IMG/VR virus record: IMGVR_UViG_3300038427_000657
Span: 62,001-126,000 of that record
DNA: 64,000 bases
Strand: one strand, 5' to 3'
Source of the DNA: a virus
The position numbers and the translations under genes are program-made. Shown here piece by piece: positions 40,357-59,514 of the stretch. Within the stretch, counting starts at the first letter, position 1. Each line of letters begins with the position of its first letter. The notes beneath the pieces were generated by a model. It ran no database searches. It was given only the letters and a program-made list of their open reading frames with translations, and had not been told where the DNA came from.

Positions 40357-40736
40357 ATTATATCAGGATTTTCAAAAATATTACCAATAATTTTGTAAAG
40401 ATAATCTTTACAAAGATGATTATTATGAAAGTCGTATAATCTTTTTCTTACTTTTACACGAAATCCAAATCCACAAAAAATAATATTTCCTTTACATATT
40501 CTAGTAGAATAAGGAGGCCCATCTTCTTGTTCAATCCATTCTACTATATCCCCTTCAAAAATTTCTTTATCACATCTATCTTTTAATCCCGTGAATAATT
40601 GAACTACTGAATTTTGGGGATTAAGTGAGTTTTCACAAATCAATTCTCCCCTAACTGAAATACCCAAAAAATCACGGGGATTACCCCATTTATTTAAAAG
40701 TTTATCCCATACTCTGAATTTTATAGTTCTGTTCAT
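40338..40736 (-). CDS. YopX-family protein, 132 aa
   Basis: Clear YopX/phage protein pattern: IKFRVWDKLLNKWG at the start, LFTGLKDRCDKEIFEGDIV in the middle (the family's QYTGLKDKNGKEIYEGDIV) and IIGNIFENPDI at the end. The family is widespread in phages and its role is unknown. Overlaps the prs stop by ATGA. Confidence 0.85.
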   Translation of the reverse strand: MNRTIKFRVWDKLLNKWGNPRDFLGISVRGELICENSLNPQNSVVQLFTGLKDRCDKEIFEGDIVEWIEQEDGPPYSTRICKGNIIFCGFGFRVKVRKRLYDFHNNHLCKDYLYKIIGNIFENPDIICPHIS

Positions 40737-41728
40737 GTGAATAATTCGCTGACACTTTCATTATTGTGAATGTTTTTGATGGCTGTAGCAAATAAAGGTG
40801 AAACATCCACTATAATTATTTTATTCTCACAACTATAAATTACAGCATTTTTACCATAACCAGAATCATCACCGTATAATTCCCATTTTTTATCAAAATT
40901 AACAGAGTTAGATACAAAAAGTTTCTCAATCAAACCGTTTTTGAATGCATCAATGAGTCGCTGATAACCTGTATCGGTAAAACATCCGTGTGAAATAGCA
41001 CAATAAATTTTTACTGCGCCTTCTTCTTTACAAGCAGTTGCCGCTTCAACCAATGTTCCGGCTGATTCGGTAAGGTCATCAACAATAAGAACTTTCTTAC
41101 CTTTAACATCACCAATGAAATGTTTTACTTCAACCGAAGTTTCGTTGGTTCGTTTTTTTGAAATAATTACCAAATCAGTTTTTAGAGCAGTAGCATATTC
41201 TTCTGCACGTTTTACTGCTCCAACATCAGGACTTACCACAGCTTTTATTCCAATGTCTTTTATAACATTTATAAGAGCTGGTCTGAAAGATAATTGGTCG
41301 ACAGGCAAATTAGTAAAACCAACTATTTGAGGGGAATGAAGGTCCATCGTAAGAATACGATTAACACCAGATGCCTTTAATAAATCCATTACTAATCTAG
41401 CAGAAATAGGAACACGGCTTTTATCTTTCCTATCCTGTCTAGCATAACCGAAATAGGGAATAACAGCAGTAATGCGCCCAGCCGAAGCCCGGCGTGCGGC
41501 ATCACACATCACCAAAAGTTCCATAAGGTTGTCATTGACTGGTAATGAAGTGGATTGAATCAAAAAGACATCATTACCACGAATATTTTCCTTAAATTGA
41601 CAATATCTTTCACCACTTGGAAACGTTTTTAAATCAATCCTTCCTACAGGAATTGACAAACAACTGTTTCTCGAAAGGCAGATTTTTTCAACTAACGGTT
41701 TATTGGAACTACCTGAAAATATTTTCAT
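40733..41728 (-). CDS. prs: ribose-phosphate pyrophosphokinase (PRPP synthetase), 331 aa
   Basis: Converts ribose-5-phosphate plus ATP to PRPP. Recognised by VPISARLVMDLLKASGVNRI, LTMDLHSPQIVGF, AVVSPDVGAVKRAEEYA and the PRPP-binding loop LIVDDLTESAGTLVEAA; length fits the bacterial enzyme (about 315 aa) plus a short tail. In this operon it directly feeds the nicotinate phosphoribosyltransferase, which consumes PRPP. Confidence 0.9.
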   Translation of the reverse strand: MKIFSGSSNKPLVEKICLSRNSCLSIPVGRIDLKTFPSGERYCQFKENIRGNDVFLIQSTSLPVNDNLMELLVMCDAARRASAGRITAVIPYFGYARQDRKDKSRVPISARLVMDLLKASGVNRILTMDLHSPQIVGFTNLPVDQLSFRPALINVIKDIGIKAVVSPDVGAVKRAEEYATALKTDLVIISKKRTNETSVEVKHFIGDVKGKKVLIVDDLTESAGTLVEAATACKEEGAVKIYCAISHGCFTDTGYQRLIDAFKNGLIEKLFVSNSVNFDKKWELYGDDSGYGKNAVIYSCENKIIIVDVSPLFATAIKNIHNNESVSELFT

Positions 41729-41731
41729 AAT

Positions 41732-42007
41732 TTATTCTTTTTCATCATCATCATCATCTATACCCAAATCTGCTTCTTCACCACCAAATTCTTCAAGAGC
41801 TTGTTGAATGGTAAATGAAGTTCCATATTCAAAATTAATATTATCGAGAGATGAAATAAAATCATTATATGCTTCAGCAAACATCGAATAAGCTTCTTTA
41901 TATTTTTTTTCTAATCGAAGTCGTTGTTGGATAATCTTTAGCATCCAAGGTGGATATACTTCTTTACCAATCTTTCCAATTTTCGATTGTTTAGATTTTG
42001 CTTTCAT
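41732..42007 (-). CDS. hypothetical protein, 91 aa
   Basis: Not recognised. Lys-rich N-terminus, helical middle (QRLRLEKKYKEAYSMFAEAY) and a strongly acidic C-terminus ending DDDDEKE. Lies between PNKP and prs, one base after the PNKP stop. Confidence 0.6.
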   Translation of the reverse strand: MKAKSKQSKIGKIGKEVYPPWMLKIIQQRLRLEKKYKEAYSMFAEAYNDFISSLDNINFEYGTSFTIQQALEEFGGEEADLGIDDDDDEKE

Positions 42008-42008
42008 G

Positions 42009-42947
42009 TTATTTACAAAATTCGCTTATATGAGCAAATTTAAATCCACATCGTTCTGCAAATGTTCTGTCAGTTGTTTGGTCGCCCACCATAATACAAT
42101 CAGAGGGGCACAGTTTGTATTTTTCAATAAAAATTGCTCCCATACCGACATGCGGTTTTCTACAATAGCAAGATACAGGAGGAATACTGTGTTGGCAATA
42201 TAAAAAGTCAACTTTGATACCAAGTTGCCGGTTCGTTTCCTCAAAACATTGAACTGCCATATCCTCTGAAATAATTCCTTTGGCAATGCCTGATTGATTT
42301 GATGCTCCAAGAATAATAAATCCATTATCTTCTGCTTCTTTCACAATATTGGTCATTTTAGGATTTACTTTAATTTCTGAAAGTTTCGTTGGATAATCAT
42401 ATTCTCCAAGACTTTCACGAAGAACACCATCATAATCCAAAATAATAGCTTTATGCTTGTATTGAGCCGGCCAAATTCTTTTGAAAGGAACTTCAATTAT
42501 TTCATCAAACCCTTCTTCGGTTGTAGGTGGTTGAAATATTTTTCTGTAATGAAAAAGAGCTGCTGGTGGAAAAGCATTTGGGTCTTTCAATTTCTTAAAA
42601 TCGTCTGGGCCGGGAAGTATTCCATATTTCCTAATCATCCGAAGGCAAACATTTAATTGTGCTTCTTCAAGAGAAGTAGTCAACCAATGACAGGTGATTT
42701 TGGCTCGTAATTGTTTTGCCAATTTAATGATAGAAGAACGGCTTTCTCTTGTTGGATAGGTATTATCAAGAACAACCTTTTCAACGCCATTAACAAGAGC
42801 ATCTTCTACTATTTCTGTTTGGCCTTTAATACTACCACCTGTCATATCACGGTTAATTCTTTGATAATCGTCTTTGACAAATTGTTCAACCAATGTGCTT
42901 TTACCAGCAGCATTGATACCCATTACTATGATAATGTGTTTACTCAC
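42009..42947 (-). CDS. polynucleotide kinase-phosphatase (PNKP), 312 aa
   Basis: Two catalytic halves: an N-terminal P-loop kinase with GINAAGKST (residues 10-18) and VVLDNTYPTRESR, and a C-terminal HAD phosphatase with ILDYDGVLRES (Asp171, Asp173), ILGASNQSGIA and CRKPHVGMGAIF ... MVGDQTTDRTFAERCG. It phosphorylates 5'-OH and removes 3' or 2',3'-cyclic phosphates, healing ends for an RNA ligase. Translation starts at a GTG that overlaps the pncB stop by GTGA. Same overall order as T4 PNK. Confidence 0.87.
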   Translation of the reverse strand: MSKHIIIVMGINAAGKSTLVEQFVKDDYQRINRDMTGGSIKGQTEIVEDALVNGVEKVVLDNTYPTRESRSSIIKLAKQLRAKITCHWLTTSLEEAQLNVCLRMIRKYGILPGPDDFKKLKDPNAFPPAALFHYRKIFQPPTTEEGFDEIIEVPFKRIWPAQYKHKAIILDYDGVLRESLGEYDYPTKLSEIKVNPKMTNIVKEAEDNGFIILGASNQSGIAKGIISEDMAVQCFEETNRQLGIKVDFLYCQHSIPPVSCYCRKPHVGMGAIFIEKYKLCPSDCIMVGDQTTDRTFAERCGFKFAHISEFCK

Positions 42948-44107
42948 AGAATTCCCAACTGTTTTTTAACTGATTGAATTGATTCTGACTTTCCTGTATG
43001 TTTTCCTTCATCATCAGAAAGTTTTACTACATCAACCCATCCTTTACCAAAATTAGCCCGTGTCATTTTAATAACCATATTAAGAGGCTTGACACCAACA
43101 TCGTTGGTAAGATTTGTTCCAATACCACCAACAGGTTGAGCTACACTTTGAAAAGTTTTTGCTAATTCAATGTATTTTTCAACATTAAGATTATCTGAAA
43201 ATACAAATCGTTTATTGGTTGTCAAAATTCCCAAATTTTGATAATGTTTTAACATTCTATATCCCCATTCTTTGGGATTTCCACTGTCTTGACGAACTCC
43301 ATCAAATAGTTTTGCTTCAAACATTTCAAAATCATTTAAAAACATTTCGGTAGTAAATGTATCAGTTAATGCTACACCAAGAGCACCACCAAAATGTTCA
43401 CTCCAGAGTTTTACCCACATTTTATTAGCCATTCTGACTCCATATAAAGCTGACATAGCCATTATACATTCATGAGCATAAGTTCCTTGTGGAGTGACAC
43501 CATGCTTCATTGCTAAATGAGGATTACTTGTTCCAAGAAATCCCTTGTAGTTTTTCATTATTTCTACAACTCTGTCTTGGACTTCATACGAATAACGTCT
43601 GCGTGTTCCAAAATCAATCCAATAACATCCGTTATTTGAAAGTTTTTTGGCTTTCTCAATTATTCTAAGATACCAGAGATTTATTTTTTCTTGGTTAGTT
43701 ATTAGAAAATATAATTCAGAAATAATAGCCATGAGTTTGACTTCCCAAAAAATGGTGCGATACCAAGGCCCACGGATTTTAACTTTGAGATCGCCACCTT
43801 CTTGGCTAATTTGAACTTCATCAGGATACATCGTGTAACCTAATAACCATTCAGCGTAAGTAGGACGAATATAAGGAATGGTTTTGAGCCATCTTTCTTC
43901 TTTTTTGGTCAAACGGAGCCAAGTTAATTCATGGATTTGGTGATTTAATTCTTCGGCAAATCCTTCGGGAAAAGGCGTTTTTCCACGGTTGATAAATTCG
44001 TATTCAACTTCAGCATTTGGGAAGTTGTGAAATACCACACTGCCCATAGTGAGCTTATACCAATCGTCATCCAACATCGAAATAATTATAGGTCTGTCAA
44101 CAATCAT
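42944..44107 (-). CDS. pncB: nicotinate phosphoribosyltransferase, 387 aa
   Basis: NAPRTase of the PncB type (E. coli PncB is 400 aa; the longer NAMPT family is about 490). Motifs: LTMGSVVFHNFP near the N-terminus, FGTRRRYSYEVQ (166-177), FLGTSNPHLAMKHGV (190-204), and GTYAHECIM (208-216) with the probable phosphorylated His212, then VRQDSGNP. It makes nicotinate mononucleotide from nicotinic acid and PRPP, using ATP hydrolysis. First gene of a seven-gene operon (pncB, PNKP, 91 aa, prs, YopX, OGFr, Cys-rich). Leaderless start. Confidence 0.92.
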   Translation of the reverse strand: MIVDRPIIISMLDDDWYKLTMGSVVFHNFPNAEVEYEFINRGKTPFPEGFAEELNHQIHELTWLRLTKKEERWLKTIPYIRPTYAEWLLGYTMYPDEVQISQEGGDLKVKIRGPWYRTIFWEVKLMAIISELYFLITNQEKINLWYLRIIEKAKKLSNNGCYWIDFGTRRRYSYEVQDRVVEIMKNYKGFLGTSNPHLAMKHGVTPQGTYAHECIMAMSALYGVRMANKMWVKLWSEHFGGALGVALTDTFTTEMFLNDFEMFEAKLFDGVRQDSGNPKEWGYRMLKHYQNLGILTTNKRFVFSDNLNVEKYIELAKTFQSVAQPVGGIGTNLTNDVGVKPLNMVIKMTRANFGKGWVDVVKLSDDEGKHTGKSESIQSVKKQLGIL

Positions 44108-44113
44108 AGTGAC

Positions 44114-44141
44114 AGTATATCAGAGGATTATAAAAAGTCAA
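44114..44141 (-). promoter_or_regulatory. promoter for the pncB-prs operon
   Basis: -35 TTGACT, 16-bp spacer, extended -10 TGATATACT; pncB ATG exactly 6 bases downstream. Confidence 0.85.
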
Positions 44142-44165
44142 GCGTAACGGAATAAGTAGAAGAAA

Positions 44166-44633
44166 TTAATCCCCATCTCCGCCGCCACCTGCATCACCGC
44201 CATCGGCATCAACATCGCCACCAACTTCTGCGGGTTCAGTTCCGATTTCAATGCCTTCCATTTCATCCAAGTTGTCTATTTCTGATTCACCAAGGTCTGT
44301 AGTATCAACTTCTTCATCTCCAAGGTCTTCCAGAGCTTCTTTGGTAGCTTTAAGCAATTCTTTCGGTAAAGTTGTAGATTTCAACCATTTTAGTGAAGAA
44401 AAGGAACGGGTTGCTATGGGTGAAGATGCGTATGAATATGCATTGGTATTTATCACTATTACATACCAATACATTAAATTGGTTGAAGTATCAGTATGAA
44501 GGAGTTTGTAACAATGAATCGTCTCTTTTGCTGGCAATTTGTGGCGATTTATATCACAACCACTGAAAATGACCGTCATAAGAGCAAGAAATGCTAGGAA
44601 CAATAGGATTAGTATAGTACGTTTTGTTTTCAT
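44166..44633 (-). CDS. lipoprotein, 155 aa
   Basis: Signal peptide ILILLFLAFLALMTVIFSGC with a standard lipobox FSGC (Cys26). The mature part is beta-rich, then very acidic with a Gly/Asp-rich end (DADGGDAGGGGDGD). Cotranscribed with the methyltransferase gene. Role unknown; perhaps exclusion at the cell envelope. Confidence 0.72.
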   Translation of the reverse strand: MKTKRTILILLFLAFLALMTVIFSGCDINRHKLPAKETIHCYKLLHTDTSTNLMYWYVIVINTNAYSYASSPIATRSFSSLKWLKSTTLPKELLKATKEALEDLGDEEVDTTDLGESEIDNLDEMEGIEIGTEPAEVGGDVDADGGDAGGGGDGD

Positions 44634-44634
44634 A

Positions 44635-45414
44635 TTAATTTCGTTTTAGAATTAGTTTTATGTGTGTCGGGTCTTTGATTTCAATACCTGTGTCATCTTT
44701 GACGGTTTGTAAAATGTAAGGAAGAATATAATGTTCGTGAAATATTACATCATATTCTTTTGGTATCTTTGCTAATAAATTTTCTCTTGATACTGGCAGG
44801 TAGTTCTCTCTTACCTCTCTATCCCAGTTTGGTTCAAGGTATTTGTATTTTAGCAAAAAATGGATTAACTGGCGGTTACTTTCAATACTACCCCAAATAC
44901 TTTCAAAATCATTTAGAACTTTTTTGTCAAGGAATTTATGATAGATTTTCTTTACGTCATTAACATTTGAAGGCCTATCAATAGAACGGCTTGGAACCAT
45001 ATCCCGAATGACAACGTATTCAAAGCCAGTGTCAAACACTTTCTTCCAAAAATCATCAATTTCTGCCTTGCTGAAATAATGACAAATTTCATGGATAACC
45101 GAACTTAAAATAAGAGCAGCTTTTGCCCAATGTGGAATTTGCTGTTCGACAAACTTCCAGTCGTTTGTAATTCTAATAGCTGCAGTAGAATTTTTTCTTA
45201 TTTCAGTTATCATTTTAACATTACTATCATATCCAATACCACAAATGTTTCCTTTTAACGATTGAATATGATTAAGGAGAGAACCATCACCACAACCGAA
45301 ATCAACGAAAATATCGGGATTTATTTTGTCAATGAAGAATAGCTTATCAATTATTGAAAGTTCCATACGGCCATTGTAGGTCGCATAATCTTTGATTGGT
45401 TGTAATTCATTCAT
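44635..45414 (-). CDS. class I SAM-dependent methyltransferase, 259 aa
   Basis: SAM-binding motif I IFVDFGCGDGSLLNHI (about residues 35-50), followed by GIGYDSNVKMI (motif II acidic residue) and the ILSSVIHEICHYF segment. Resembles class I small-molecule or protein methyltransferases; the C-terminal 100 residues are a substrate-binding extension. Substrate unknown. Confidence 0.75.
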   Translation of the reverse strand: MNELQPIKDYATYNGRMELSIIDKLFFIDKINPDIFVDFGCGDGSLLNHIQSLKGNICGIGYDSNVKMITEIRKNSTAAIRITNDWKFVEQQIPHWAKAALILSSVIHEICHYFSKAEIDDFWKKVFDTGFEYVVIRDMVPSRSIDRPSNVNDVKKIYHKFLDKKVLNDFESIWGSIESNRQLIHFLLKYKYLEPNWDREVRENYLPVSRENLLAKIPKEYDVIFHEHYILPYILQTVKDDTGIEIKDPTHIKLILKRN

Positions 45415-45423
45415 CGTAACAAT

Positions 45424-45451
45424 ATTTTACCACAAGGATATAAAAAGTCAA
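45424..45451 (-). promoter_or_regulatory. promoter for the methyltransferase-lipoprotein unit
   Basis: -35 TTGACT, 16-bp spacer, extended -10 TGGTAAAAT, ATG after 9 bases. Confidence 0.82.
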
Positions 45452-45456
45452 GCGTA

Positions 45457-47410: not shown

Positions 47411-47707
47411 TTATTTCATTTTCTTTCTAGATTTATGAGGTTCATATTTTTTATTTGTTACGTTGATATAATCTTCTTTACTTCGTTGCCAAATATCATC
47501 ACGTCCTTTTACAGCAAAAGACAATGAACCACAACCTGAATTGACAGATTCTATAGTGTCAAATGCAATATATTTTAATTTTCTTGGTAAATAAATTAAA
47601 GCATCATCGTTATCACCAAGACAAATTATTTTAGCATTTAAAATGATTGTTCCATAGGAAAGACAATCAATATCTTCGTTTTTACTTATTCTATATTTAA
47701 TTTTCAT
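47411..47707 (-). CDS. hypothetical protein, 98 aa
   Basis: Not recognised. Beta-rich, with ALIYLPRKLKYIAFDTIESV and a very basic end (KSRKKMK). Overlaps the PP2C stop by ATGA; a possible accessory of the triad. Confidence 0.6.
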   Translation of the reverse strand: MKIKYRISKNEDIDCLSYGTIILNAKIICLGDNDDALIYLPRKLKYIAFDTIESVNSGCGSLSFAVKGRDDIWQRSKEDYINVTNKKYEPHKSRKKMK

Positions 47708-48522
47708 ACAACAATTGCTGCCATTGAAATGTCATCATAATGACTGATTTGGGTTTTAATCCATTGTCTTTTCAAAAATGAAAGTCTTCTCTGAACAAAA
47801 ACACCGGGTGTGGTTTTAAAGTCAATAAAGTAGCGGGCGATAGCTTCCCAAGGAATTGTAGAACCATCAGCAGTGGTAAAACTGTTGACACCATCTGAAC
47901 AAATAGCTATAATATCATTTTCTTCAACCAACCCTTTAAATGTAACAGGTTCAAATGGTTTAACATAAGTTTCATTTTCAATTACGTCACCTGATTGGCT
48001 GTCTGAGGTTTCACCTGTATATATGGAAATATCCAATATTTTTTTGGAACCTAAAACTGTTTTTTCGTATTCCCATAAGCGAAGTTTATCAAGATAGTAG
48101 GAAAGATATGCTGGACAATTACCTTCAAAATTTACGTGGACGAGACGAATATTTGTGGCGGTTTTATGAAAGAAAACTCCATCACCATACATGTGAACTG
48201 TAAATTTCTTATCTTTCACCCATGCAACTAACAAAGTAGAATCCAAAGAATGAGGATGAAGCGGAATTGTGTCACCAATATGTTCAAGATTTCTAATAGT
48301 AACTTTACCAAACAAATCATAATTCATATCACTGCCACCAATTGATAACGTTCGCTTTGCTGACAAAGCTAATGCTCTTGCTCCAAAATCCACGTCAGGA
48401 CTTGAGGAACAACCATCACAGACAATAGCATAAGAACTGTTACTGTCAATCGCATTACTTAAAGCATAATCTTCACAAATTGTATGTCCATGTCCGATGG
48501 AAAAATAGTGGTCGGCGTTCAT
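47704..48522 (-). CDS. PP2C-type serine/threonine phosphatase, 272 aa
   Basis: Metal-dependent phosphatase: CEDYALSN (metal Asp18), VCDGCSS (Asp36, Gly37), AICSDGVNSF and the terminal HYDDISMAAIVV. Removes phosphate from Ser/Thr residues, presumably reversing the kinase encoded downstream. The ATG at 48522 is preferred; the frame extends to a GTG at 48567 but those 15 codons coincide with a perfect hairpin. Confidence 0.86.
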   Translation of the reverse strand: MNADHYFSIGHGHTICEDYALSNAIDSNSSYAIVCDGCSSSPDVDFGARALALSAKRTLSIGGSDMNYDLFGKVTIRNLEHIGDTIPLHPHSLDSTLLVAWVKDKKFTVHMYGDGVFFHKTATNIRLVHVNFEGNCPAYLSYYLDKLRLWEYEKTVLGSKKILDISIYTGETSDSQSGDVIENETYVKPFEPVTFKGLVEENDIIAICSDGVNSFTTADGSTIPWEAIARYFIDFKTTPGVFVQRRLSFLKRQWIKTQISHYDDISMAAIVV

Positions 48523-48538
48523 ATGATTATTAGAAGTG

Positions 48539-48563
48539 GGGAAGGGAATTACATTCCCTTCCC
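48539..48563. promoter_or_regulatory. 10- to 11-bp hairpin ahead of the PP2C gene
   Basis: GGGAAGGGAA / TTCCCTTCCC with a short loop, between the vWA and PP2C genes. The bases after it on the minus strand are not U-rich, so it may be a processing or translational element rather than a terminator. Confidence 0.55.
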
Positions 48564-48590
48564 TCACAGTGATTATGCACTTGATATTTA

Positions 48591-49340
48591 TTAAAACTTA
48601 AAGGAACTAATCGGTTGGCTTGGAGCACCGCTACCCAATGCTGAACTTGTCGAACTGATTGATTGACTGACGAAGGCTGCCAATTTGGCAATTTTTCCGG
48701 GGGTAGCTTTGCCTATCGAAACATATTGTGTTATTCCAGCCTTCGTAACCATATCCTGCAAATAAGCATCAAGGTTGGTATCATCCGTGGTGACACCAAC
48801 AAGGATAAGGGTAATACTTTCAAGATTTTCACTCTTGCGGGCTTCTTCAAGGGATTTCTTAATTTGTGCCGCATCGTAAATGTTACCGCTGTTGTTTTGA
48901 CTATCTGTAACCACCACTATAATGGCGTTGACAAGAAAGTTTTGACTGGTCAATTGTTTTCCATAAGTCGAAGTAGCTTGAATACTTTCATCAACTGCGT
49001 CGAATAGAGCTGTCATACCGCCAATACTCAAAATATTGTCGTAATCATGCTCTTGAATAGAACCCAACAACTTAAAACCGTGAAGTTCTTTCAGGTTGTC
49101 GTTGAATTGGGTAAGTCGAAGCATAAGGTTATCCTTACGCGGGGACTTCTCCATTGCTTTTAAAATTGTCTTGATAGCTTGCTCCAAATTAGCAGCAAAG
49201 CCAGACACGGAACCACTGGCATCTTCAACAATCGTTGCCAAGGTGTATTCAGCCGCCCCAAGTTTGTTAATCTTGGTAGCGCTGAATTTGTAATTAGAAC
49301 CCGCGTTTAGCATTTCTAGGTCTTTATCCATTAAGCTCAT
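48591..49340 (-). CDS. TerY-like vWA-domain protein, 249 aa
   Basis: von Willebrand factor A domain with the metal-binding MIDAS motif DASGS (residues 40-44), GGMTALFDAVDESI (the conserved Thr) and IIVVVTDSQNN (Asp). Single-domain TerY-like vWA proteins cluster with a PP2C phosphatase and a kinase as the TerY-P triad of tellurite/stress-response islands. Here all three are present. GC-richer, with an A/C-rich leader. Confidence 0.83.
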   Translation of the reverse strand: MSLMDKDLEMLNAGSNYKFSATKINKLGAAEYTLATIVEDASGSVSGFAANLEQAIKTILKAMEKSPRKDNLMLRLTQFNDNLKELHGFKLLGSIQEHDYDNILSIGGMTALFDAVDESIQATSTYGKQLTSQNFLVNAIIVVVTDSQNNSGNIYDAAQIKKSLEEARKSENLESITLILVGVTTDDTNLDAYLQDMVTKAGITQYVSIGKATPGKIAKLAAFVSQSISSTSSALGSGAPSQPISSFKF

Positions 49341-49373: not shown

Positions 49374-50186
49374 TTACCAATCTTTCGAGGTAGTGAGCTT
49401 CATGCCCTTGTTAGCCATTTCAAGAACGAAGTCTCGTCCAAGTTTTTCAAATCCACCCACATTAGAAGATGTATCTTTCAATAGGGTGAATTTTTTAACA
49501 TTATCCACACCGAATTGTTTGGCTACATCGTAAATTGTGTTAGCAACACAATGACTTAATGCTTCGCCGGTGATAAGAATTTCATCAGCCTCAGTTAAAG
49601 CATCAATCAAATTGGTGTTCAACTTGGTGCTAGGGTCATTATCATCCGGCACGTCAGCTTGAACACCGCTATAGTGTTCTGTGAAAAAGTTGGAACCTTT
49701 GGCAACAAAGTTCACTCTGTCAAAACCATTTTCCCATTCATAGAGAGCCTTTGCAACCGAAGGAACAATACTATGCCCCCAAGTTCCAATTAAACAGTGG
49801 GGTGGCCAAATACACAAAACATATCGTTTGTTTTTGGCAAGTGTTTCAACATAAGTCTGTGCTCTTGCCTGCCACCGTGGATTAAATGTTCTCCATACAC
49901 CGTTTTTTACATCGTCAACAGTAATAACAGTAAACGGATTTGGATGTTCACCTTTGGAATTAACCCAAAAAATAGGGTGAGCAATATGAACCAATTGGTG
50001 AGAATCAAGGGTACAGTGAATTTGCTCAATTCTTTTCCCGTTTTTTGTAATAAATGTGGCTAACCGTTCCATATCGGTATCAGCGCCACCGACAACCAAT
50101 GCCCCCTTTTCCCCACCGGGGCCATTTGGGATGCAGAAATCATTCTGCGGGTCAATCATCAATAGATGGATTTTTCTTGCACTCAT
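49374..50186 (-). CDS. pncA: nicotinamidase-like amidohydrolase, 270 aa
   Basis: Isochorismatase/nicotinamidase fold with the catalytic triad visible: Asp12 in IDPQNDF, Lys163 in VAKGSN and nucleophile Cys213 in GEALSHCVANT. The metal-site Asp61/His63/His67 or His70 lies in TLDSHQLVHIAH and the characteristic WPPHCLIGTWG (127-137). It would deamidate nicotinamide to nicotinic acid, the first step of the Preiss-Handler route. At 270 aa it is longer than the typical 180-210 residues. First gene of the operon containing the vWA-PP2C-kinase triad. Confidence 0.87.
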   Translation of the reverse strand: MSARKIHLLMIDPQNDFCIPNGPGGEKGALVVGGADTDMERLATFITKNGKRIEQIHCTLDSHQLVHIAHPIFWVNSKGEHPNPFTVITVDDVKNGVWRTFNPRWQARAQTYVETLAKNKRYVLCIWPPHCLIGTWGHSIVPSVAKALYEWENGFDRVNFVAKGSNFFTEHYSGVQADVPDDNDPSTKLNTNLIDALTEADEILITGEALSHCVANTIYDVAKQFGVDNVKKFTLLKDTSSNVGGFEKLGRDFVLEMANKGMKLTTSKDW

Positions 50187-50231: not shown

Positions 50232-50260
50232 ATCATATCAGACTTTTTCTAATCTGTCAA
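50232..50260 (-). promoter_or_regulatory. promoter for the pncA-triad operon
   Basis: -35 TTGACA, 17-bp spacer, extended -10 TGATATGAT. The stop codon TGA of the Nudix gene lies just before the -10 box. Leader of about 40 bases containing AACAACAAACAG and AAGGAA. Confidence 0.75.
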
Positions 50261-50672
50261 ATCGCATCTTTAACTGTCCGATAATTTCTTTTAGACCGGG
50301 CATTAAATCCAATTTCAACGCTTCATCACAAGTCATCAATATCCAATCGCCTGTTTTTTCATTTTCAATTCTCAAGGGAATTTCTGTTTCATTTAATTCA
50401 ATTAAATAAACAAAACAAACGTCTGTAGTTGGGTCATCAAAAATAGCGTCCACGTATTCCAATCTTTTTGTGTCAATTTCAAGACCCGTTTCTTCGGTAA
50501 CTTCTCTGATACCACTCTCTACTGGATTTTCTCCAATCTCCAATTTACCACCTGCAAATTGCCATCTACCAGAAAAATTTATAGTATTTTTTCTTTGTGA
50601 CATATAGATGCAGTTTCTAAAGAGTAAGCCGACTGTCACTGTATGTCTTACTGTATGCCTTGTGTATTTCAT
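50238..50672 (-). CDS. Nudix hydrolase, 144 aa
   Basis: Complete Nudix box GGKLEIGENPVESGIREVTEETGLEI (split: GGKLEIGENPVES and GIREVTEETGLEI), with all catalytic glutamates present, preceded by WQFAGGK. Hydrolyses nucleoside diphosphate-X compounds: NADH, ADP-ribose, NTPs or mRNA caps. Starts one base after the nadM stop, so cotranslation with the NMN adenylyltransferase is likely, pointing to NAD-related substrates. Confidence 0.85.
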   Translation of the reverse strand: MKYTRHTVRHTVTVGLLFRNCIYMSQRKNTINFSGRWQFAGGKLEIGENPVESGIREVTEETGLEIDTKRLEYVDAIFDDPTTDVCFVYLIELNETEIPLRIENEKTGDWILMTCDEALKLDLMPGLKEIIGQLKMRFDRLEKV

Positions 50673-50673: not shown

Positions 50674-51600
50674 TTAAATTCTATTCAATATTTTATCAAC
50701 GACAAGTCCTTTTAACATTCTAAAAAGGACACGGTGTTCTTCAATGAACATATCTTCTCTTAAAGCTTGTAAAGTCACCCATTCCACTTCAGCAATATCA
50801 TCATCTGCTGTGGGAGTTCCTGAAACATAATCACAAATAAAGAAGATTGTTTTGATTTTATTTCTTTCATTCTCAAAGCGCCAATCTCTTATTCGAGAGC
50901 TTCCAATATATTGAAAGTTATCACATTCCAAATGAGTTTCCTCATTTGTTTCCCTTTTAGCATCATCTTCATAAGATTCTGAATCAGGATGAGCAAAACC
51001 ACCAACAAATCTAAGCAATTTCTGGTTAGATTTACGGCAAAGAAGAACACGAGTATTATCTCTATCAAGAATTGCTATGTCAACCGTAGGGAGAGCACTA
51101 GGCCATTGATTCTCAACAGCCCAAATAACGCCCTCCCGAAATTGTGGAGTAGCCTTTGATTTGATTCCTACATTCTTTCTGATTTCTTTGCCTGAAATAT
51201 ATTTGTTAGGAACCAACTCTTCTGTAGGGTATTTTCCATGATAATGTGGAATAAAACTATCACGGCTTCCATAGAGAACTACTTTTTGATTGGGGCCAAT
51301 TTGTGAGGTAATTATTCTATCTAATTCCTTACTCCAAAGTTCATCGTTTCCAACGTCTTTGATATAAAGAACTTCAACGGTAGGAAACTCCTTTTCTACC
51401 ATTGCTTTACGTGTGGGAAAATCAAGAGGATTATTGTAGGTGCATTTACATGCATCAGCAGCTAGACCAAGAATAACAAACACTCTAGGATGAATGCTTA
51501 AAACTCTTTGAATAAGAGCTTTATGTTCTTCATGAAGTTCTGGAACCTGAAAGCGAGCGACGATTGCGCCTACTTCTGCTGTTTCATTTACTGTTTTCAT
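50674..51600 (-). CDS. nadM: bifunctional NMN adenylyltransferase/Nudix hydrolase, 308 aa
   Basis: NadM-Nudix fusion like those of phage KVP40 and Synechocystis. The N-terminal adenylyltransferase has VARFQVPELHEEHKALI (His23 and His26 in place of HxGH) and the SGKEIRKN end motif (ISGKEIR). The C-terminal Nudix domain (about 172-308) has RETNEETHLE (Arg216, Glu217, Glu220, Glu221) within a slightly atypical box. First half makes NAD+/NaAD from mononucleotide plus ATP; second half cleaves ADP-ribose to AMP and ribose-5-phosphate. The 69-base leader contains a hairpin. Confidence 0.9.
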   Translation of the reverse strand: MKTVNETAEVGAIVARFQVPELHEEHKALIQRVLSIHPRVFVILGLAADACKCTYNNPLDFPTRKAMVEKEFPTVEVLYIKDVGNDELWSKELDRIITSQIGPNQKVVLYGSRDSFIPHYHGKYPTEELVPNKYISGKEIRKNVGIKSKATPQFREGVIWAVENQWPSALPTVDIAILDRDNTRVLLCRKSNQKLLRFVGGFAHPDSESYEDDAKRETNEETHLECDNFQYIGSSRIRDWRFENERNKIKTIFFICDYVSGTPTADDDIAEVEWVTLQALREDMFIEEHRVLFRMLKGLVVDKILNRI

Positions 51601-51748: not shown

Positions 51749-52219
51749 TTAAATGTAATCATATTCATCATCATGTTCAGTTTTCTTTAAACTTATCTCC
51801 AAATCTACTTTAAGTAAAGCTTTGTTTAATTTAAAAAGAATATGTCTAAGACCGGGAACTAAATCTAAAACAACTGCAGCATTCATTTTAAATAATTTCC
51901 AATCCGAACGGTCTGTTACACCATTATTATTGGTAGGAACTTCGTGTTCTTTAAGATGAACAAGATAAACGAAGTAAAATTCATCGGCTGCATCTATGGT
52001 AATTGAACCAATGTAATGAAGCTTACTCCCTGCGATTATTAGCCCTGTTTGGTCTTGTGCAATTCTAATAGAAGCTGTATGCCCATTTTCGCCTTGTTTC
52101 ATTGCACCATTGACAAATTGCCACTTTTTAGGAAAGAGAGGGGTGTCAATTCGTCTGGATAGATAAATGCCTCTGTCTTTGACAAGACCAACTGCTACGC
52201 CGTATGTTGTGGTGCCCAT
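51749..52219 (-). CDS. degenerate Nudix-fold protein, about 156 aa
   Basis: Nudix fold with a damaged catalytic box: GAMKQGENGHTASIRIAQDQTGLI (split: GAMKQGENGHTAS and IRIAQDQTGLI) has Ile and Asp-Gln where the active enzymes have Glu and Glu-Glu. Otherwise it parallels the 144-aa Nudix protein (WQFVNGAMK, DAADEFYFVYLV, DLVPGLRHILFKL). It may be a non-catalytic nucleotide binder. The ATG at 52219 is used because the earlier ATG lies inside the promoter. Confidence 0.75.
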   Translation of the reverse strand: MGTTTYGVAVGLVKDRGIYLSRRIDTPLFPKKWQFVNGAMKQGENGHTASIRIAQDQTGLIIAGSKLHYIGSITIDAADEFYFVYLVHLKEHEVPTNNNGVTDRSDWKLFKMNAAVVLDLVPGLRHILFKLNKALLKVDLEISLKKTEHDDEYDYI

Positions 52220-52238
52220 AATTTTTAATCGCTTAAAA

Positions 52239-52266
52239 AGCATATCACCATTTTATATTTTGTCAA
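52239..52266 (-). promoter_or_regulatory. promoter for the degenerate Nudix gene
   Basis: -35 TTGACA, 16-bp spacer, extended -10 TGATATGCT. Confidence 0.78.
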
Positions 52267-53479: not shown

Positions 53480-53494
53480 GCGTTTGGAAGAAAT

Positions 53495-53530
53495 AAAAGA
53501 GAGCCAGTTAGAAATGATTGACTCTCTTTT
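53495..53530. terminator. bidirectional terminator between convergent genes
   Basis: Stem AAAAGAGAG / CTCTCTTTT with an 18-base loop; followed by a T-run on the plus strand and an A/T-rich run on the minus. Lies exactly between the Hsp20 and the 489-aa gene. Confidence 0.78.
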
Positions 53531-54999: not shown

Positions 55000-55014
55000 T
55001 GGTAATAAGTATTA

Positions 55015-55521
55015 TCAATAGAGTTGAATGACTCTTTTGATTTTGTTTTTTGTTGTTTTACTTCTACAATTTGTTGGTAATTGTGAATTACAGTTGGGAC
55101 AAACAAATCTTAAATTCTCTATTCTATGGTCATTATGAACGCCATTTTTATGGTCTAAAACTAACACTAATTTTTTACTTTTCCAAAAGGGTTCTTGACC
55201 ACAAACAGAACAAACATATTTAATTAAACTATATCTTAGAATATATTTCTTGATACTTTGTCTATCCATTATGGAATTTTCACAGAAATATTTAATAGTA
55301 GCTTCTTTTGATACTAAAAATTTTCCTTTACTCCAAAGACATCCTTGACCATCCCTTATGTGAGAATAATCTATATTATCTTTTAGCATTCTTTCTTTTA
55401 AATTAACGGTGGTGGTACCGGGTTTTAGTCCAAGTTGTCTTAAGATTTCGGTATAGGAATGAGAAGATTTAACAATTTCTTCCAATGATTCTTTAGAAAT
55501 TTTCCAAATAATACTTTTCAT
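55015..55521 (-). CDS. HNH homing endonuclease, 168 aa
   Basis: HNH nuclease motif: CSVCGQEPFW, then LVLDHKNGVHNDHRIENLRFVCPNCNSQLPT (split; catalytic His in DHKNG, zinc knuckles CSVC/CPNC). An N-terminal helix-turn-helix-like segment (EEIVKSSHSYTEILRQLG) would bind DNA. ATG at 55521 preferred. Located directly beside the tRNA genes, a common site for homing endonucleases. Confidence 0.85.
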   Translation of the reverse strand: MKSIIWKISKESLEEIVKSSHSYTEILRQLGLKPGTTTVNLKERMLKDNIDYSHIRDGQGCLWSKGKFLVSKEATIKYFCENSIMDRQSIKKYILRYSLIKYVCSVCGQEPFWKSKKLVLVLDHKNGVHNDHRIENLRFVCPNCNSQLPTNCRSKTTKNKIKRVIQLY

Positions 55522-55574
55522 AAGGATAAATATCATTTGTATTGGCAAAAAAGTATGAAAACTTTGCGTAAATA

Positions 55575-55652
55575 TGGTGATGCTGGTCGGGCTTGAACCG
55601 ACATAAATCCAATTACAGTTACTTGTTTAGGAAACAAGGCTGATACAGCATC
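55575..55652 (-). tRNA. tRNA-like gene, apparent tRNA-Arg (CCU) lacking a D arm
   Basis: Perfect 7-bp acceptor (GATGCTG/CAGCATC), perfect 5-bp T stem (GTCGG/CCGAC) with TTCAAGC loop, discriminator A and an encoded CCA. An anticodon arm CTTGT-TTCCTAA-ACAAG gives CCU (Arg). But only 7 bases lie between acceptor and anticodon stem, so no D arm can form, and 19 unpaired-looking bases fill the variable region. Either a genuine odd tRNA, a decoy or a decayed gene. Confidence 0.55.
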
Positions 55653-55657
55653 GAAAG

Positions 55658-55735
55658 TGGTACTGCTGGCGGGATTCGAACCCACTAAATCCAGTTTAGA
55701 AGACTGGTGCCTAATCCGATTCGTGCCTCAGCAGC
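55658..55735 (-). tRNA. tRNA-Arg (anticodon UCU)
   Basis: Acceptor GCTGCTG/CAGCAGT (one G-U), anticodon stem CCAGT/ACTGG with loop CTTCTAA giving UCU (reads AGA/AGG), T stem GTGGG/CCCGC, discriminator A and encoded CCA. The D arm pairs over only 2 bp, weaker than usual, though the GG of its loop is present. AGA is a frequent codon in AT-rich phage genes, so this tRNA would help translation. Confidence 0.8.
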
Positions 55736-55752
55736 GTTAATATCAGTATATA

Positions 55753-55780
55753 AGTATATACGAGGTTGAGAAAAAGTCAA
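55753..55780 (-). promoter_or_regulatory. promoter for the tRNA genes
   Basis: -35 TTGACT, 16-bp spacer, -10 TATACT; tRNA-Arg begins about 10 bases after the predicted start. Confidence 0.8.
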
Positions 55781-55783
55781 GCC

Positions 55784-56275
55784 TTATCTTGGCCCATCCA
55801 TATCCATGCTTCCCCAAACTTTTATATGTTCCTTAAATACATATTTGGAATATTCTGCTTCTGATATTTTCTTTAAAGCTCTCAGAGAAGTTGAACTTAT
55901 ATGCTCAAATTTCTTGTCACAAATGAAAAATACTGTTTTAAGAGGGGGATACATTCCTTTAATAAATTCAAGTTGATTCTGCTCATATTGAAGGTCATCA
56001 CCATTTCTAAGACCACGAATAAGGAAAATTTCATCTCCGTAAGATGTTAATTCAGTCAAATAATCTGAAAGTAATCCTTCAAAAACAACCACCTTTGCAC
56101 CTTTCAAAATTGGATTACCGGTAGGAAATTCTTCTTTTGTATCATTTTTTATTGGATTTTGACCGATAGCTATAATTACTTCATCAAACACTTCTTGAGC
56201 TTGGTGTAGAATGTTTGCATGTCCACAATGAAAAGGATTAAAACTTCCAGCATATACACCAATTTTTTTACTCAT
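55784..56275 (-). CDS. CoaD-like adenylyltransferase, 163 aa
   Basis: Nucleotidyltransferase with GSFNPFHCGHAN (the HxGH adenylyl-transfer motif), LIRGLRNGDDLQYEQNQLEF and ISSTSLRAL, the last two typical of phosphopantetheine adenylyltransferase (CoaD, about 160 aa). It would make dephospho-CoA from phosphopantetheine and ATP; a nicotinate-mononucleotide role cannot be excluded because the GSFNP start is also NadD-like. Confidence 0.78.
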   Translation of the reverse strand: MSKKIGVYAGSFNPFHCGHANILHQAQEVFDEVIIAIGQNPIKNDTKEEFPTGNPILKGAKVVVFEGLLSDYLTELTSYGDEIFLIRGLRNGDDLQYEQNQLEFIKGMYPPLKTVFFICDKKFEHISSTSLRALKKISEAEYSKYVFKEHIKVWGSMDMDGPR

Positions 56276-56447
56276 ATTTTTTTAATTTTTGGTTAGCTAA
56301 ATGTAACTCTCCATCTAAAGCATCATTTTTAGATTCCAAAACTTTTACTTCACGTTGAAGTATTTTGTTCTCTTTCTCAAGAACTTGATTCTCCCTCTTG
56401 AGTCGTCTGATTTCCTTCAATAATTGGTCTTCCGTTTTTGTTTTCAT
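56268..56447 (-). CDS. coiled-coil protein, 59 aa
   Basis: Almost pure heptad helix: LLKEIRRLKRENQVLEKENK followed by ILQREVKVLESKNDAL. It overlaps the CoaD-like start by 8 bases and, upstream, the zinc-ribbon gene by 71 bases in a different frame. Probably a dimerising structural peptide. Confidence 0.6.
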   Translation of the reverse strand: MKTKTEDQLLKEIRRLKRENQVLEKENKILQREVKVLESKNDALDGELHLANQKLKKYE

Positions 56448-56595
56448 TTACTTTTATTCTTCTACCATCAATAATATTCCATCCACGCTTTTTAGCATGT
56501 ATTGGGCAATACCATACAGATTCATGATCTTCATCAAGAATCAATGCGCCACAATCATGACAGTAATGCAATCCCGGCGCTTCTGTAATTCTCAT
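56377..56595 (-). CDS. small zinc-ribbon protein, 72 aa
   Basis: YCHDCGALILDEDHESVWYC (CxxC and C), then PIHAKKRGW, with a Gly/Ser/Thr/Gln-rich tail. Nine bases between the -10 box and ATG. The tail overlaps the coiled-coil gene. Confidence 0.6.
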   Translation of the reverse strand: MRITEAPGLHYCHDCGALILDEDHESVWYCPIHAKKRGWNIIDGRRIKVNENKNGRPIIEGNQTTQEGESSS

Positions 56596-56604
56596 AACTA
56601 TATT

Positions 56605-56632
56605 ATTTTATCACCAAGTTATAAATTGTCAA
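56605..56632 (-). promoter_or_regulatory. promoter for the 56595-55784 unit
   Basis: -35 TTGACA, 16-bp spacer, extended -10 TGATAAAAT. Confidence 0.8.
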
Positions 56633-56635
56633 GTA

Positions 56636-57388
56636 TTATGTTTTGAGAGTACATTTGAGATTTCCACAAACAGGACAAGATTTACCAATGGGTTTTATAT
56701 CATTGGCAATACCATATTTTTTCAATTCTTTATGAGAAAGTTGACGTTTTAAGACAATTTTAACATGGGGAAAATCTTTCCAAATATAATAATACCTTGG
56801 TTTGTCAAAAGAACCAATCAAACGTTCTCTTGGTCCTCTTTGTTCATAAAGATTATCGTAGAAAGAATTTTCTATAATTTTGCCTTTCACTTCATACCAA
56901 ATACCATCAAATTTAAGTAATTGGTGATAGTCACCTAATATACGAAAAGTTTTGGCTTCTTCTTCCTCTTGTATTTTTCTATAATTTACTTTCTTTGGTT
57001 TGTAATGACAAAGAATTTTGGTTTTGGGATGAACATAAAACATTTCTGAATAAGAATAATAACTTTCATTACATCTTTCAATTGGTCGTTCATTGCCACC
57101 AAAACCTTTGGCAAAATACCAAACTTTACCATCTTTTATAAAAGTATTGAGAATAACAGAACAACTAATTTGTTCTTGAGTTCTATATTGACGGGGAATC
57201 CATTCCAAGTGAACAAATTCAGAAAACACCCTGTCCCAAGGTTTGCCAATTCTTGAGGTTAAGAAGCGATAAACCTTTTTCCAAGGATAATCTTTTCCAT
57301 GTTCATACCAATTGCTACGGGAGCGAAATTTGGCATGATTAGGAAGGTCGTCAACAACTTCTGGATGTTCGTAAATGAGATTTTTCAT
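56636..57388 (-). CDS. conserved hypothetical protein with C-terminal CxxC, 250 aa
   Basis: Contains VYRFLTSRIGKPWDRVFSEFVH, a pattern (YRFLxSxxGxPWxKVYSE) I recall in hypothetical proteins of environmental bacteria and phages. Ends SCPVCGNLKC, a zinc knuckle. The rest is alpha/beta and charged. Alone under its own promoter. Role unknown. Confidence 0.68.
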   Translation of the reverse strand: MKNLIYEHPEVVDDLPNHAKFRSRSNWYEHGKDYPWKKVYRFLTSRIGKPWDRVFSEFVHLEWIPRQYRTQEQISCSVILNTFIKDGKVWYFAKGFGGNERPIERCNESYYSYSEMFYVHPKTKILCHYKPKKVNYRKIQEEEEAKTFRILGDYHQLLKFDGIWYEVKGKIIENSFYDNLYEQRGPRERLIGSFDKPRYYYIWKDFPHVKIVLKRQLSHKELKKYGIANDIKPIGKSCPVCGNLKCTLKT

Positions 57389-57399
57389 TACGAATAAAT

Positions 57400-57427
57400 A
57401 TTATATCAGAATTGTATAAGAAGTCAA
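57400..57427 (-). promoter_or_regulatory. promoter for the 250-aa gene
   Basis: -35 TTGACT, 16-bp spacer, extended -10 TGATATAAT (perfect). The -35 TGA is the stop codon of nadE. Confidence 0.86.
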
Positions 57428-59514
57428 GCGTTACTTCCACCAAGAACAATCGGTTTTTTGACAAATACTATGAGTTCTTCTAGTTCTTCCTCATATCCAC
57501 CTGTAAGAATTGGTGTTCTACACCATGTTCGGGGGTCAAGATTATGGTCGTCCATGTGGAAACTCAAAGCATATCGTTCACGTTTCCATTGGTTCCTTGA
57601 AAACAACTTAAAGAATTTGGTAATATCTTTGATTAATTGATTGTTATCATAATCAATCGAAATCCTCAATGATTGATAGATTTCAAGAGGCGTGTAACGG
57701 TTTTTTACAACCATCGTTTCAATCTTGTGTAATAACCAATAAGGCATTAAGTCATCTTCATCGGTCTGTTTGTAGCTTGCTGGACGAAGTTCAGCCGTAG
57801 GCTGTTGTTCAACAATAGCATACATCTCCGTTGTTGGGCCAATGTTTCTTGGACCGGTATAGGCAACCCAAGCTAAAAATTCACGGATATAAACCTTTGG
57901 TAATCCAGCGATAGGTGCTACACTTCCTGCGGTGTCACCATCCATTGTTGCGTAACCAACTGCCGCTTCTGACATATTGCTTGTCGTCAATAATAGAGTT
58001 CCCTTCATATTGGCAATCATCCAAATGCCGGGAGCGCGAACACGAGCTTGAAGATTCTGTAAAACAATATCATTTTCTTCAAAGGTCAATTCACTTCCCT
58101 TGACAATTTTACCTAGATTCTTATAATTCTTTACCATCGGTTCAACGTCAAATTCATAATGAGGAATATTTAGAGCTTTCGCCAATCCCTTAGCGGCGTT
58201 TCTTGTAATTTCTCCACTCTGAGCTGTTGATTGATAAGCGGTAGTAATTAAAGATTTAGTAATTCTGCGAATAAATTCATTTTCTGTTTTAGCATTGACG
58301 ATATTAAAAATTCCATCATTTTTAACGTGAGGACAATATTTTTCAATAAATCCCACCACTCCCAATTCTTTTACTCCAAGATGAATTCCCATAGCACAAA
58401 GATATATCACCATTGCCGAATCGGCTCCACCACTTAACGAAATAGTAAAACCTTTCGTGTGACTCTTTCTCATGTAATCCATCAAAGCTAACCCAAGAGC
58501 ACGAACACATTCTTCATGTTTTACAAAGCCGGTAGAAAATTTATCTATTTCCCATTCCTCTTGTTCTGGACTGGTCGTAAGTTGTTCTGTAATAGTAGGA
58601 TACCTGAAATCAACCTTAACACAACCTTGATTGTATTGTTCAATATTTGGTTGAAAACTTGCTGTGCGAACTTGTGAAGTTCGTGTATTATCAACATCAA
58701 TAACTGCTGTGGTTAATAAAACATTCTTATAAGTAAAACGTTTTCCAATAGCTACCAAAGAACCACCTGTAGCAATTAAAGCTCCACCGTCATAAATTGC
58801 CCGTCCGGCTTCATTACCAACAAGATTAGCATAAACGTATGTAGCTCCAAATGCTCGTGAACCGTCAACAACGAAATTTTTTCGTGTGTTTAGTTTATTA
58901 AAAGAAAAGTGTGAGGCACTAGGATTGAGATAAATATCAACTCCCTTGGTAGCCAAAACTGTTCCCGGTCTATTGGCAACCCAAGCATCTTCACAAATTT
59001 CATATCCGATTTTGATGCCTCCAATATTAAAATGAATATCACCAATAGGAAAATCTCCACCAAGTTCAGGAATATTTATAATTTGGACTATACCAGATGG
59101 CCAAGGTTTATACCAACGATTTTCGTAATGAATACCATCACCAGCCAAGTGTTGTTTACAAGTAAATCCTACAACTTTTCCATAGACTACAGTGGCAACA
59201 GTATTGTAAAGAGTGTTATTGAATCTTACAGGTAACCCAATACAAACAATTAAGTTGTCACATAAACGATTATATCCATTTGTATTAGGAGTGTTTATAA
59301 TCTCTTTCAATTTTATCATCGCTCTATGAGAAACATCAGAGCAGAAAAGGTCATCTTCCATTCCATAGCCTGTGATGGTCGCTTCAGGAAGGCAAAGAAT
59401 AGTAACATTTTCATTTTTAGCTGTTTTAATTGCTTCAAGAATATTAGCCATATTCCCCTTCCAATCACGGGGAGTTTGATTCAATACCGCAGCAGCAACT
59501 TTAATCAGCTTCAT
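57424..59514 (-). CDS. nadE: glutamine-dependent NAD+ synthetase, 696 aa
   Basis: Two-domain NadE. The N-terminal nitrilase-fold glutaminase has the catalytic triad Glu44 (CLPEATITGYG), Lys120 (GFTCKQHLAGDG) and Cys174 (GYEICEDAW). The C-terminal synthetase domain has the ATP-pyrophosphatase P-loop SLSGGADSAMV (SGGADS at 361-366), LLTTSNMSEAAVGYATMDGDTAGSVAPIAGLPK and AELRPASYKQTDEDDLMPY. Catalyses the last step, NaAD to NAD+, using ammonia from glutamine. Full length for the glutamine-dependent form, leaderless start (6 bases from the -10 box). The phage thus has its own complete NAD+ route. Confidence 0.93.
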   Translation of the reverse strand: MKLIKVAAAVLNQTPRDWKGNMANILEAIKTAKNENVTILCLPEATITGYGMEDDLFCSDVSHRAMIKLKEIINTPNTNGYNRLCDNLIVCIGLPVRFNNTLYNTVATVVYGKVVGFTCKQHLAGDGIHYENRWYKPWPSGIVQIINIPELGGDFPIGDIHFNIGGIKIGYEICEDAWVANRPGTVLATKGVDIYLNPSASHFSFNKLNTRKNFVVDGSRAFGATYVYANLVGNEAGRAIYDGGALIATGGSLVAIGKRFTYKNVLLTTAVIDVDNTRTSQVRTASFQPNIEQYNQGCVKVDFRYPTITEQLTTSPEQEEWEIDKFSTGFVKHEECVRALGLALMDYMRKSHTKGFTISLSGGADSAMVIYLCAMGIHLGVKELGVVGFIEKYCPHVKNDGIFNIVNAKTENEFIRRITKSLITTAYQSTAQSGEITRNAAKGLAKALNIPHYEFDVEPMVKNYKNLGKIVKGSELTFEENDIVLQNLQARVRAPGIWMIANMKGTLLLTTSNMSEAAVGYATMDGDTAGSVAPIAGLPKVYIREFLAWVAYTGPRNIGPTTEMYAIVEQQPTAELRPASYKQTDEDDLMPYWLLHKIETMVVKNRYTPLEIYQSLRISIDYDNNQLIKDITKFFKLFSRNQWKRERYALSFHMDDHNLDPRTWCRTPILTGGYEEELEELIVFVKKPIVLGGSNA

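Follow-up and report, generated by a model that had tools for sequence, protein, structure and literature searches.

In bacteria, the Preiss-Handler pathway to nicotinamide adenine dinucleotide (NAD+) is formed by pncA, pncB, nadD and nadE, and the phage gene set analyzed here would carry out the same conversions. The routes by which phages rebuild NAD+ have so far been described as running through NadV, NadM and NadR or through NARP1, a list that a recurrent deamidating version would widen. A 2022 survey named NadV, NadM and NadR as the principal NAD+ enzymes of phages and reported that every phage with NadM also has NadV (PMC9503650). Here we describe a window of 64,000 nucleotides, bases 62001-126000 of the 189,152-base virus record IMGVR_UViG_3300038427_000657 (G000) from IMG/VR, which encodes relatives of PncA, PncB, NadM and NadE, a phosphoribosyl pyrophosphate (PRPP) synthetase (PRPS), and a triad of protein kinase, PP2C-type phosphatase and VWA-domain protein. 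We consider it probable that these genes represent a deamidating NAD+ salvage route of large phages that is tied to the kinase-PP2C-VWA triad, the whole being a regulated module that is exchanged with bacteria and recycles nicotinamide. The evidence comes from the genes present, the conservation of their catalytic residues, the predicted folds and a neighborhood that recurs in other phages and in bacteria.

The initial annotation had read a complete route from nicotinamide to NAD+ in five open reading frames of the window. All five were found open at exactly the same coordinates, each on the minus strand (Table 1). The assignments of PRPS, PncB and NadE to their sequence families are secure. 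PncB is the single NAPRTase-family match in the record, and NadE has both the amidotransferase and the synthetase domain; in the glutaminase part, the presumably catalytic E, K and C align with those of 3ilv. The locus is a tight gene run with several 4-bp overlaps, consistent with co-expression.

Table 1. Predicted genes of the NAD+ salvage locus and its surroundings (coordinates of the window)
Feature	Position	Strand	Basis
PARP-like protein: WGR, PARP regulatory and PARP catalytic domains, 425 amino acids	38216..39493	-	Pfam matches
PRPP synthetase (PRPS)	40733..41728	-	NF002320 347.9 bits (cut-off 297)
Polynucleotide kinase/phosphatase-like protein (AAA_33 + HAD)	42009..42947	-	Domain matches; overlaps PncB by 4 bp
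Nicotinate phosphoribosyltransferase (PncB)	42944..44107	-	TIGR01514 389.8 bits (cut-off 269.55); PDB 2im5 E 2.4e-78
Methyltransferase-like protein, same gene run	44635..45414	-	Methyltransf_25 E 1.2e-4, 23.1 bits (cut-off 27)
YegI-like protein kinase, 575 amino acids	45457..47184	-	Family profile vs E. coli YegI 57.6 bits
PP2C-type phosphatase	47704..48567	-	PP2C_2 E 3.8e-8, 33.6 bits (cut-off 24)
VWA-domain protein, DxSxS motif	48591..49340	-	VWA E 2.9e-6, 28 bits (cut-off 23.8)
Nicotinamidase (PncA), divergent family	49374..50186	-	Family profile, residues, predicted structure
Stand-alone Nudix hydrolase	50238..50672	-	NUDIX E 4e-14
NadM-type nucleotidyltransferase fused to Nudix	50674..51600	-	Family profile and Foldseek
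Third Nudix-domain protein	51749..52243	-	NUDIX E 3.2e-7
Glutamine-dependent NAD+ synthetase (NadE)	57424..59514	-	CN_hydrolase and NAD_synthase above Pfam cut-offs; PDB 3ilv E 2.2e-162

Searched as a single sequence, PncA stays below the family cut-offs, with 24 bits for Pfam Isochorismatase (cut-off 27) and 31.4 bits for NCBIfam PRK11609 (cut-off 174), and matches yeast Pnc1 at E 2.6e-4; a profile of its family matches Pnc1 at E 3.6e-13. Residues D12, D61, H63, H70, H130, K163 and C213, presumably the catalytic triad and metal ligands of nicotinamidases, are invariant in all 11 phage rows. The predicted structure has a mean predicted local distance difference test score (pLDDT) of 87.7. Comparison of this model by VIA-align returned nicotinamidases or pyrazinamidases in the first 16 rows (Z 18.5-22.8); row 17 is an isochorismatase-like hydrolase (Z 18.0), with which the lower of these 16 are tied and from which the top seven (Z 19.8 or more) stand clear. 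In Foldseek, the first 20 rows are nicotinamidases. A chance resemblance to the isochorismatase fold was considered and rejected, as profile, residues and fold favor a nicotinamidase. By sequence and model, PncA is thus a divergent nicotinamidase whose catalytic site is predicted to be intact. Some bacterial loci that lack the triad have PncB behind PncA in the same orientation, at a distance of up to about 100 bp in L176, L189 and L191 and of about 1 kb in L125; this adjacency gives the nicotinamidase assignment independent support.

For the NadM-Nudix protein, a single-sequence Pfam search detects the Nudix half only, and the family profile matches NadM 2qjo (E 2.2e-16) and 2qjt (E 5.8e-16). 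The top six Foldseek rows of its model are NadM chains (E 2.5e-15 to 5.5e-14), with a root-mean-square deviation of about 16 over two domains and a TM-score of about 0.4. The model has a mean pLDDT of 75.4 and a predicted TM-score (pTM) of 0.45, so the placing of the two domains relative to each other is not reliable. Because the VIA-align list is filled by Nudix rows, Foldseek is the only one of the structure comparisons that bears on the first, NadM domain. All six rows of the family retain both HxxH histidines and the Nudix-box residues R, E, E and E. As another candidate for the adenylylation of nicotinate mononucleotide (NaMN), a CoaD-like gene near NadE (55784-56275, minus strand) was rejected, its best score being to pantetheine-phosphate adenylyltransferase (TIGR01510, 92.1 bits; cut-off 103.3). 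A search with PF01467 gave matches in 16 of the 20 phage records described below, not sorted into families.

The claim that the five genes cover every step is secure for the family assignments of PncA, PncB, PRPS and NadE; for the NaMN step it is not supported as it was put. The solved relatives of the NadM-type protein (2qjt/2r5w and 2qjo) bear the name nicotinamide mononucleotide (NMN) adenylyltransferases, which counts against adenylylation before amidation and makes the order given here for the last two steps tentative. In the alternative order, as in Francisella, NadE would amidate NaMN to NMN and the NadM-type enzyme would then adenylylate NMN to NAD+; inputs and output are unchanged and the last two steps are swapped. 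Besides the names of the closest solved relatives, this order is favored by D82 and W89, which are invariant in 6 of 6 phage NadM rows and have D and W at the corresponding columns of 2qjo; these positions presumably relate to specificity. On the other side, the phage NadE is nearest to the glutamine-dependent synthetase 3ilv and not to the short ammonia type, and the W is replaced in the NadM homolog of a Zambryskibacteria genome (pairwise alignment). The existence of such a route in Francisella is cited in PMC11097641. On balance, we regard the swapped order as unlikely in this phage.

Between PncA and PncB, the window carries the VWA, PP2C and kinase genes, which were absent from the initial annotation. 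The kinase gave no Pfam match and no PDB match, and its profile match to YegI is limited to the kinase domain; in that family D135, N137, N140 and D156 are kept in 25/25 filled rows and K39 in 96%. No family was detected for its C-terminal half, yet bacterial homologs align over nearly the full length. In PP2C, D51, G52, D278 and D279 occur in 100% of filled rows and D225 in 97%, and the VWA protein has D40, S44, T110 and D146 in 27/27 rows. These residue counts combine phage and bacterial rows, among them a few repeats of one contig. When compared with three proteins, PP2C showed weak homology to E. coli PphC (17.5 bits).

To the 15 phage PncA loci compared, IMG/VR contributed 12, including the window, and GenBank three. 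Five of an initial 16 PncA loci were left out: L004, L006, L008 and L013, whose genes are identical to those of L005, the window, L007 and L014, respectively, and L017, which is cut by a contig end; G013 lies outside the 15, its PncA and its PP2C and kinase being on separate fetched stretches of one contig. Within the fetched stretch, all three triad genes occur near PncA in 13 of the 15 loci. In 12 of these 13 they come after PncA in the same orientation, VWA first, then PP2C and kinase; some of the 12 have other genes interspersed and span up to about 12 kb (L256); in the remaining locus (L011, from record G004), the triad precedes PncA.

The wider phage sample comprised 20 records (14 from IMG/VR, 6 from GenBank), picked through matches to PncA, PncB or NadE. 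One of them is a second IMG/VR record of 365,299 bases (G001), whose PncA, PncB, NadE, NadM and PARP are 100% identical in protein sequence to those of G000; since these genes are identical, we take both as the same virus, and they are counted separately here. Several records are fragments. PncA occurs in 16 of the 20 records, PncB in 13 and the NAD_synthase family in 15; with the window NadE as query, 12 of the 20 are matched. The deamidating set had been presented as a feature of one phage; it is not confined to one, as 9 of the selected records have PncA and PncB along with a NadE (G000, G001, G002, G006, G008, G010, G013, LR756511 and LR756500). The adenylyltransferase domain of this NadM type is present in addition in 5 of the 20 (G000, G001, G002, G013 and LR756500).

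The same annotation had held that the set differs from the NadV/NadM routes of KVP40 and NARP2 and from NARP1, and this is supported: none of the 20 records, G000 and G001 included, has a match to NAMPT_N, an absence that is not proof, no IMG/VR record being rated 90% complete, and the only NAPRTase-family gene of G000 is PncB. The NAMPT_N family was matched in 2 of 14 control genomes, which included no phage NadV as positive control. These records depart from the rule that phages with NadM have NadV (PMC9503650).

For G000, which may be a fragment, no completeness rating is given. Besides rIIA, it has genes for a DNA polymerase, a helicase and a ligase of phage families (the search did not extend to capsid or terminase), and on the strength of these we take it to be a large tailed phage. 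That bacterial DNA was misbinned as virus is extremely improbable. All eight module genes do have bacterial relatives; against this stand rIIA and the replication proteins, on which we rejected bacterial contamination, and related blocks that recur in GenBank records of uncultured phages of 462-595 kb.

Bacterial relatives were sought by scanning a collection of 84,980 species, each represented by a single genome, and the best 80 of 112 stretches with PncA relatives were analyzed. Of these, 71 extend for at least 1 kb downstream of PncA; in 21 of the 71, the start of a same-strand triad gene lies less than 400 bp behind PncA, and all three triad genes are present in 11 of the 80. An Armatimonadota contig with the triad measures 1.36 Mb, which to our knowledge exceeds any known phage. 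One Zambryskibacteria contig (L264) has the complete module, arranged on one strand as PncB-PRPS-NadE-NadM-PncA-VWA-PP2C-kinase, and the gaps between genes range from -4 to 146 bp. All eight match their phage counterparts with E-values no higher than 2.8e-17 and 26-46% identity, and BacA, a sigma-70 factor and zinc carboxypeptidases are encoded nearby. In this genome, whose completeness is not established, no match was found to NadD (TIGR00482) or NAMPT_N, and a NadM relative is present, which argues that this type of NadM can work with PncB and NadE. Two apparent stop codons in this relative are explained by a match that extends beyond a 301-amino-acid open frame. Compared with the phage protein, the relative (L264:8913-9818, minus strand) seems to have a degenerate Nudix box, and a Pfam search of it gave no Nudix domain.

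In a PncA tree of 95 rows built by a quick method, the phage rows are not monophyletic: 8 changes between phage and bacterium are needed in the best tree, and starred branches force at least 4. Genes have thus been transferred repeatedly between bacteria and phages.

From these observations we infer the enzyme activities, the targets of the triad, and the direction and purpose of the route in infection, as follows. Nicotinamide would be freed when NAD+ is cleaved by host NADases or ADP-ribosylating enzymes, perhaps also by the PARP-like protein of the phage. PncA would convert it to nicotinate, which PncB would join with PRPP from the phage PRPS to give NaMN; the NadM-type enzyme would adenylylate NaMN, and NadE would amidate the product to NAD+, with the order of these last two steps subject to the alternative above. 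The linkage of the triad to these genes suggests that it tunes salvage by reversible phosphorylation, and the module has probably been exchanged repeatedly between bacteria and large phages. More tentatively, the salvage enzymes and the triad could be one phosphorylation-controlled device for NAD+ homeostasis in scattered bacterial phyla, which senses the nicotinamide or NAD+ level and switches salvage on, and which large phages have repeatedly taken up to hold NAD+ while running a PARP of their own.

Several results weigh against a regulated salvage module of this kind. On the phage side, co-occurrence rates are not unbiased, the 20 records having been selected by PncA, PncB or NadE matches. 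The NadM query matches 8 of them, with both domains in only 6, and the NadE types differ, several being short single-domain forms, so that the sets were probably assembled repeatedly. In the 231-kb record G004, PncA, PncB and the triad occur without an NAD_synthase match. Two of the 15 phage PncA loci (G006 and G008) lack the triad and have PncA-PncB-NadE clusters instead; elsewhere the triad is near PncA and not always directly behind it. The comparison of VWA with YegL (5.1 bits) is not convincing. On the bacterial side, the neighborhood counts come without a random-locus control, and the evidence there is repeated order and strand. Another gene of the NAD route occurs in only 17 of the 80 loci, two of which (L135 and L192) rely on short or partial NadM matches that may be just Nudix. 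The label "without triad" applies to 58 of the 80, among them every row of the Spirochaete clade, in some cases through a contig end. Of 12 triad-bearing bacterial genomes, one (Zambryskibacteria) has a two-domain NadM relative and six have NadD above the cut-off.

A different explanation is that PncA, VWA, PP2C and kinase are a separate signaling system. The nicotinamidase-like protein would then serve as a sensor or have some other amide as its substrate, and the proximity of PncB, NadE and NadM would be incidental. Six loci of the Competibacter group, with PncA-PP2C and no PncB or NadE match nearby, would fit this, as would the scores of PncA under the Pfam and NCBIfam cut-offs. It is countered by the catalytic and metal residues kept in 11/11 PncA rows, by nicotinamidases as the best structural matches of the PncA model, and by PncB directly after PncA in the triad-free loci L176, L189 and L191. 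We find a signaling role apart from salvage unlikely, and retain a triad-linked salvage route as the probable one.

What such a route would be for can be approached through the PARP-like gene, which lies 1.2 kb from PRPS in the same gene run. Its product matches Pfam PARP at E 1.4e-20 over residues 258-425, with WGR at 23.1 bits (cut-off 22) and PARP_reg at 24.8 bits (cut-off 26.8). It aligns with human PARP1 at E 2.7e-16, including the HGT and GNGVY segments; for the ELIVY segment, there is just a separate, weak alignment of 1.4 bits. We take H-Y-E to be the catalytic triad of PARP. The protein is a putative consumer of NAD+ that would release nicotinamide. A plain metabolic purpose, in which large genomes and long infections need NAD+, the PARP-like protein consumes it and the set keeps the pool full, is a serious possibility that we place somewhat short of an even chance. 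The location of the gene, its likeness to human PARP1 and the occurrence of PARP matches in 8 of the 20 phage records, all of which also have PncA, speak for it. Three of these 8 matches are partial, however, and no PARP match was found in 8 other PncA-bearing phage records, some of them fragments, or at any of the 80 bacterial PncA loci.

Refilling of NAD+ after depletion by TIR, SIR2 or Thoeris systems, as proposed in the initial annotation, is a plausible role of the set; as its main selective purpose, we consider this rather unlikely. The precedents are NARP1 and NARP2 (PMC12774641, PMC12028318), NADases of this kind release nicotinamide (PMC12774641), and the same role was suggested in 2026 for pncB, nadM, nadD and nadE of Xanthomonas phage X1 (PMC13384950). 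By contrast, PADLOC models, a library of defense and not of counter-defense, gave one match among 10 proteins, to a Nudix domain, and the module has relatives in bacterial contigs, where counter-defense need not apply. If a deamidating route does serve this end, host nicotinate, glutamine and PRPP would set the outcome of NAD-depleting immunity.

Other genes of the window were also recorded. Two class-II glutamine amidotransferase-like and two Amidoligase_2 genes form one run (31251-36996, minus strand), possibly a peptide- or protein-tagging system. An RNA ligase (1188-2141, minus strand) and the polynucleotide kinase/phosphatase-like gene of Table 1 may be a nucleic-acid repair pair. An AAA ATPase (14701-16635, minus strand) matches ClpB_D2-small and Peptidase_M41, an unusual FtsH-like combination.

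Within the literature searched, the terms "nicotin" and "NAD" do not occur in the main text of the huge-phage paper PMC7162821, and phage RyR-domain proteins together with NAD+ synthesis are the topic of PMC13232231. Among the matches listed, in which most subscription papers are missing, no title or abstract opening mentions a nicotinamidase alongside VWA, PP2C and kinase genes or a phage set of pncA, pncB and nadE. Like the NadV-NadM route of KVP40 and NARP2, the window would encode rebuilding of NAD+ from nicotinamide with a NadM-Nudix fusion and the use of PRPP; unlike it, the window has no detected NadV (NAMPT_N), and nicotinamide would first be deamidated, with PncA, PncB and NadE. NARP1 (Adps and Namat) likely shares the source of substrate, nicotinamide from NADases. 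It differs in that NAD+ is rebuilt by a two-step route that begins with ADP-ribose and uses a Nampt-like ligase (PMC12774641). The 20 phage records have no NAMPT_N match, the ability of that model to detect Namat not being established, and the window PRPS scores above the ribose-phosphate diphosphokinase cut-off.

Closer in gene content are Xanthomonas phage X1, whose list contains pncB, nadM, nadD, nadE and NAMPT and no pncA (PMC13384950), and Agrobacterium phage Atu_ph07 and Sinorhizobium phage Phosso, in which pncB and nadE are annotated and in which a search for PncA gave no match. All three share pncB and nadE with the window phage and differ from it in that PncA is present in the window phage and not listed or matched in them. 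Relative to the bacterial Preiss-Handler pathway, the set is phage-borne, includes PRPS and substitutes a NadM-Nudix protein for NadD.

For the triad, the nearest named set is YegI-PphC-YegL of E. coli, in which kinase, PP2C and VWA genes likewise stand together; its 9-kb neighborhood is without nicotinamidase or NAD+ genes, whereas the phage triad is linked to them. The TerY-P triad associated with tellurium resistance presumably also unites kinase, PP2C and VWA genes in this way. The linkage seen here gives a concrete guess for what this bacterial signaling triad may regulate, namely NAD+ salvage. Rebuilding of NAD+ by phages is of a known kind. What is new, as far as the literature searched goes, is that a deamidating version with no NadV match recurs in large phages and that it is linked to the triad in both phages and bacteria.

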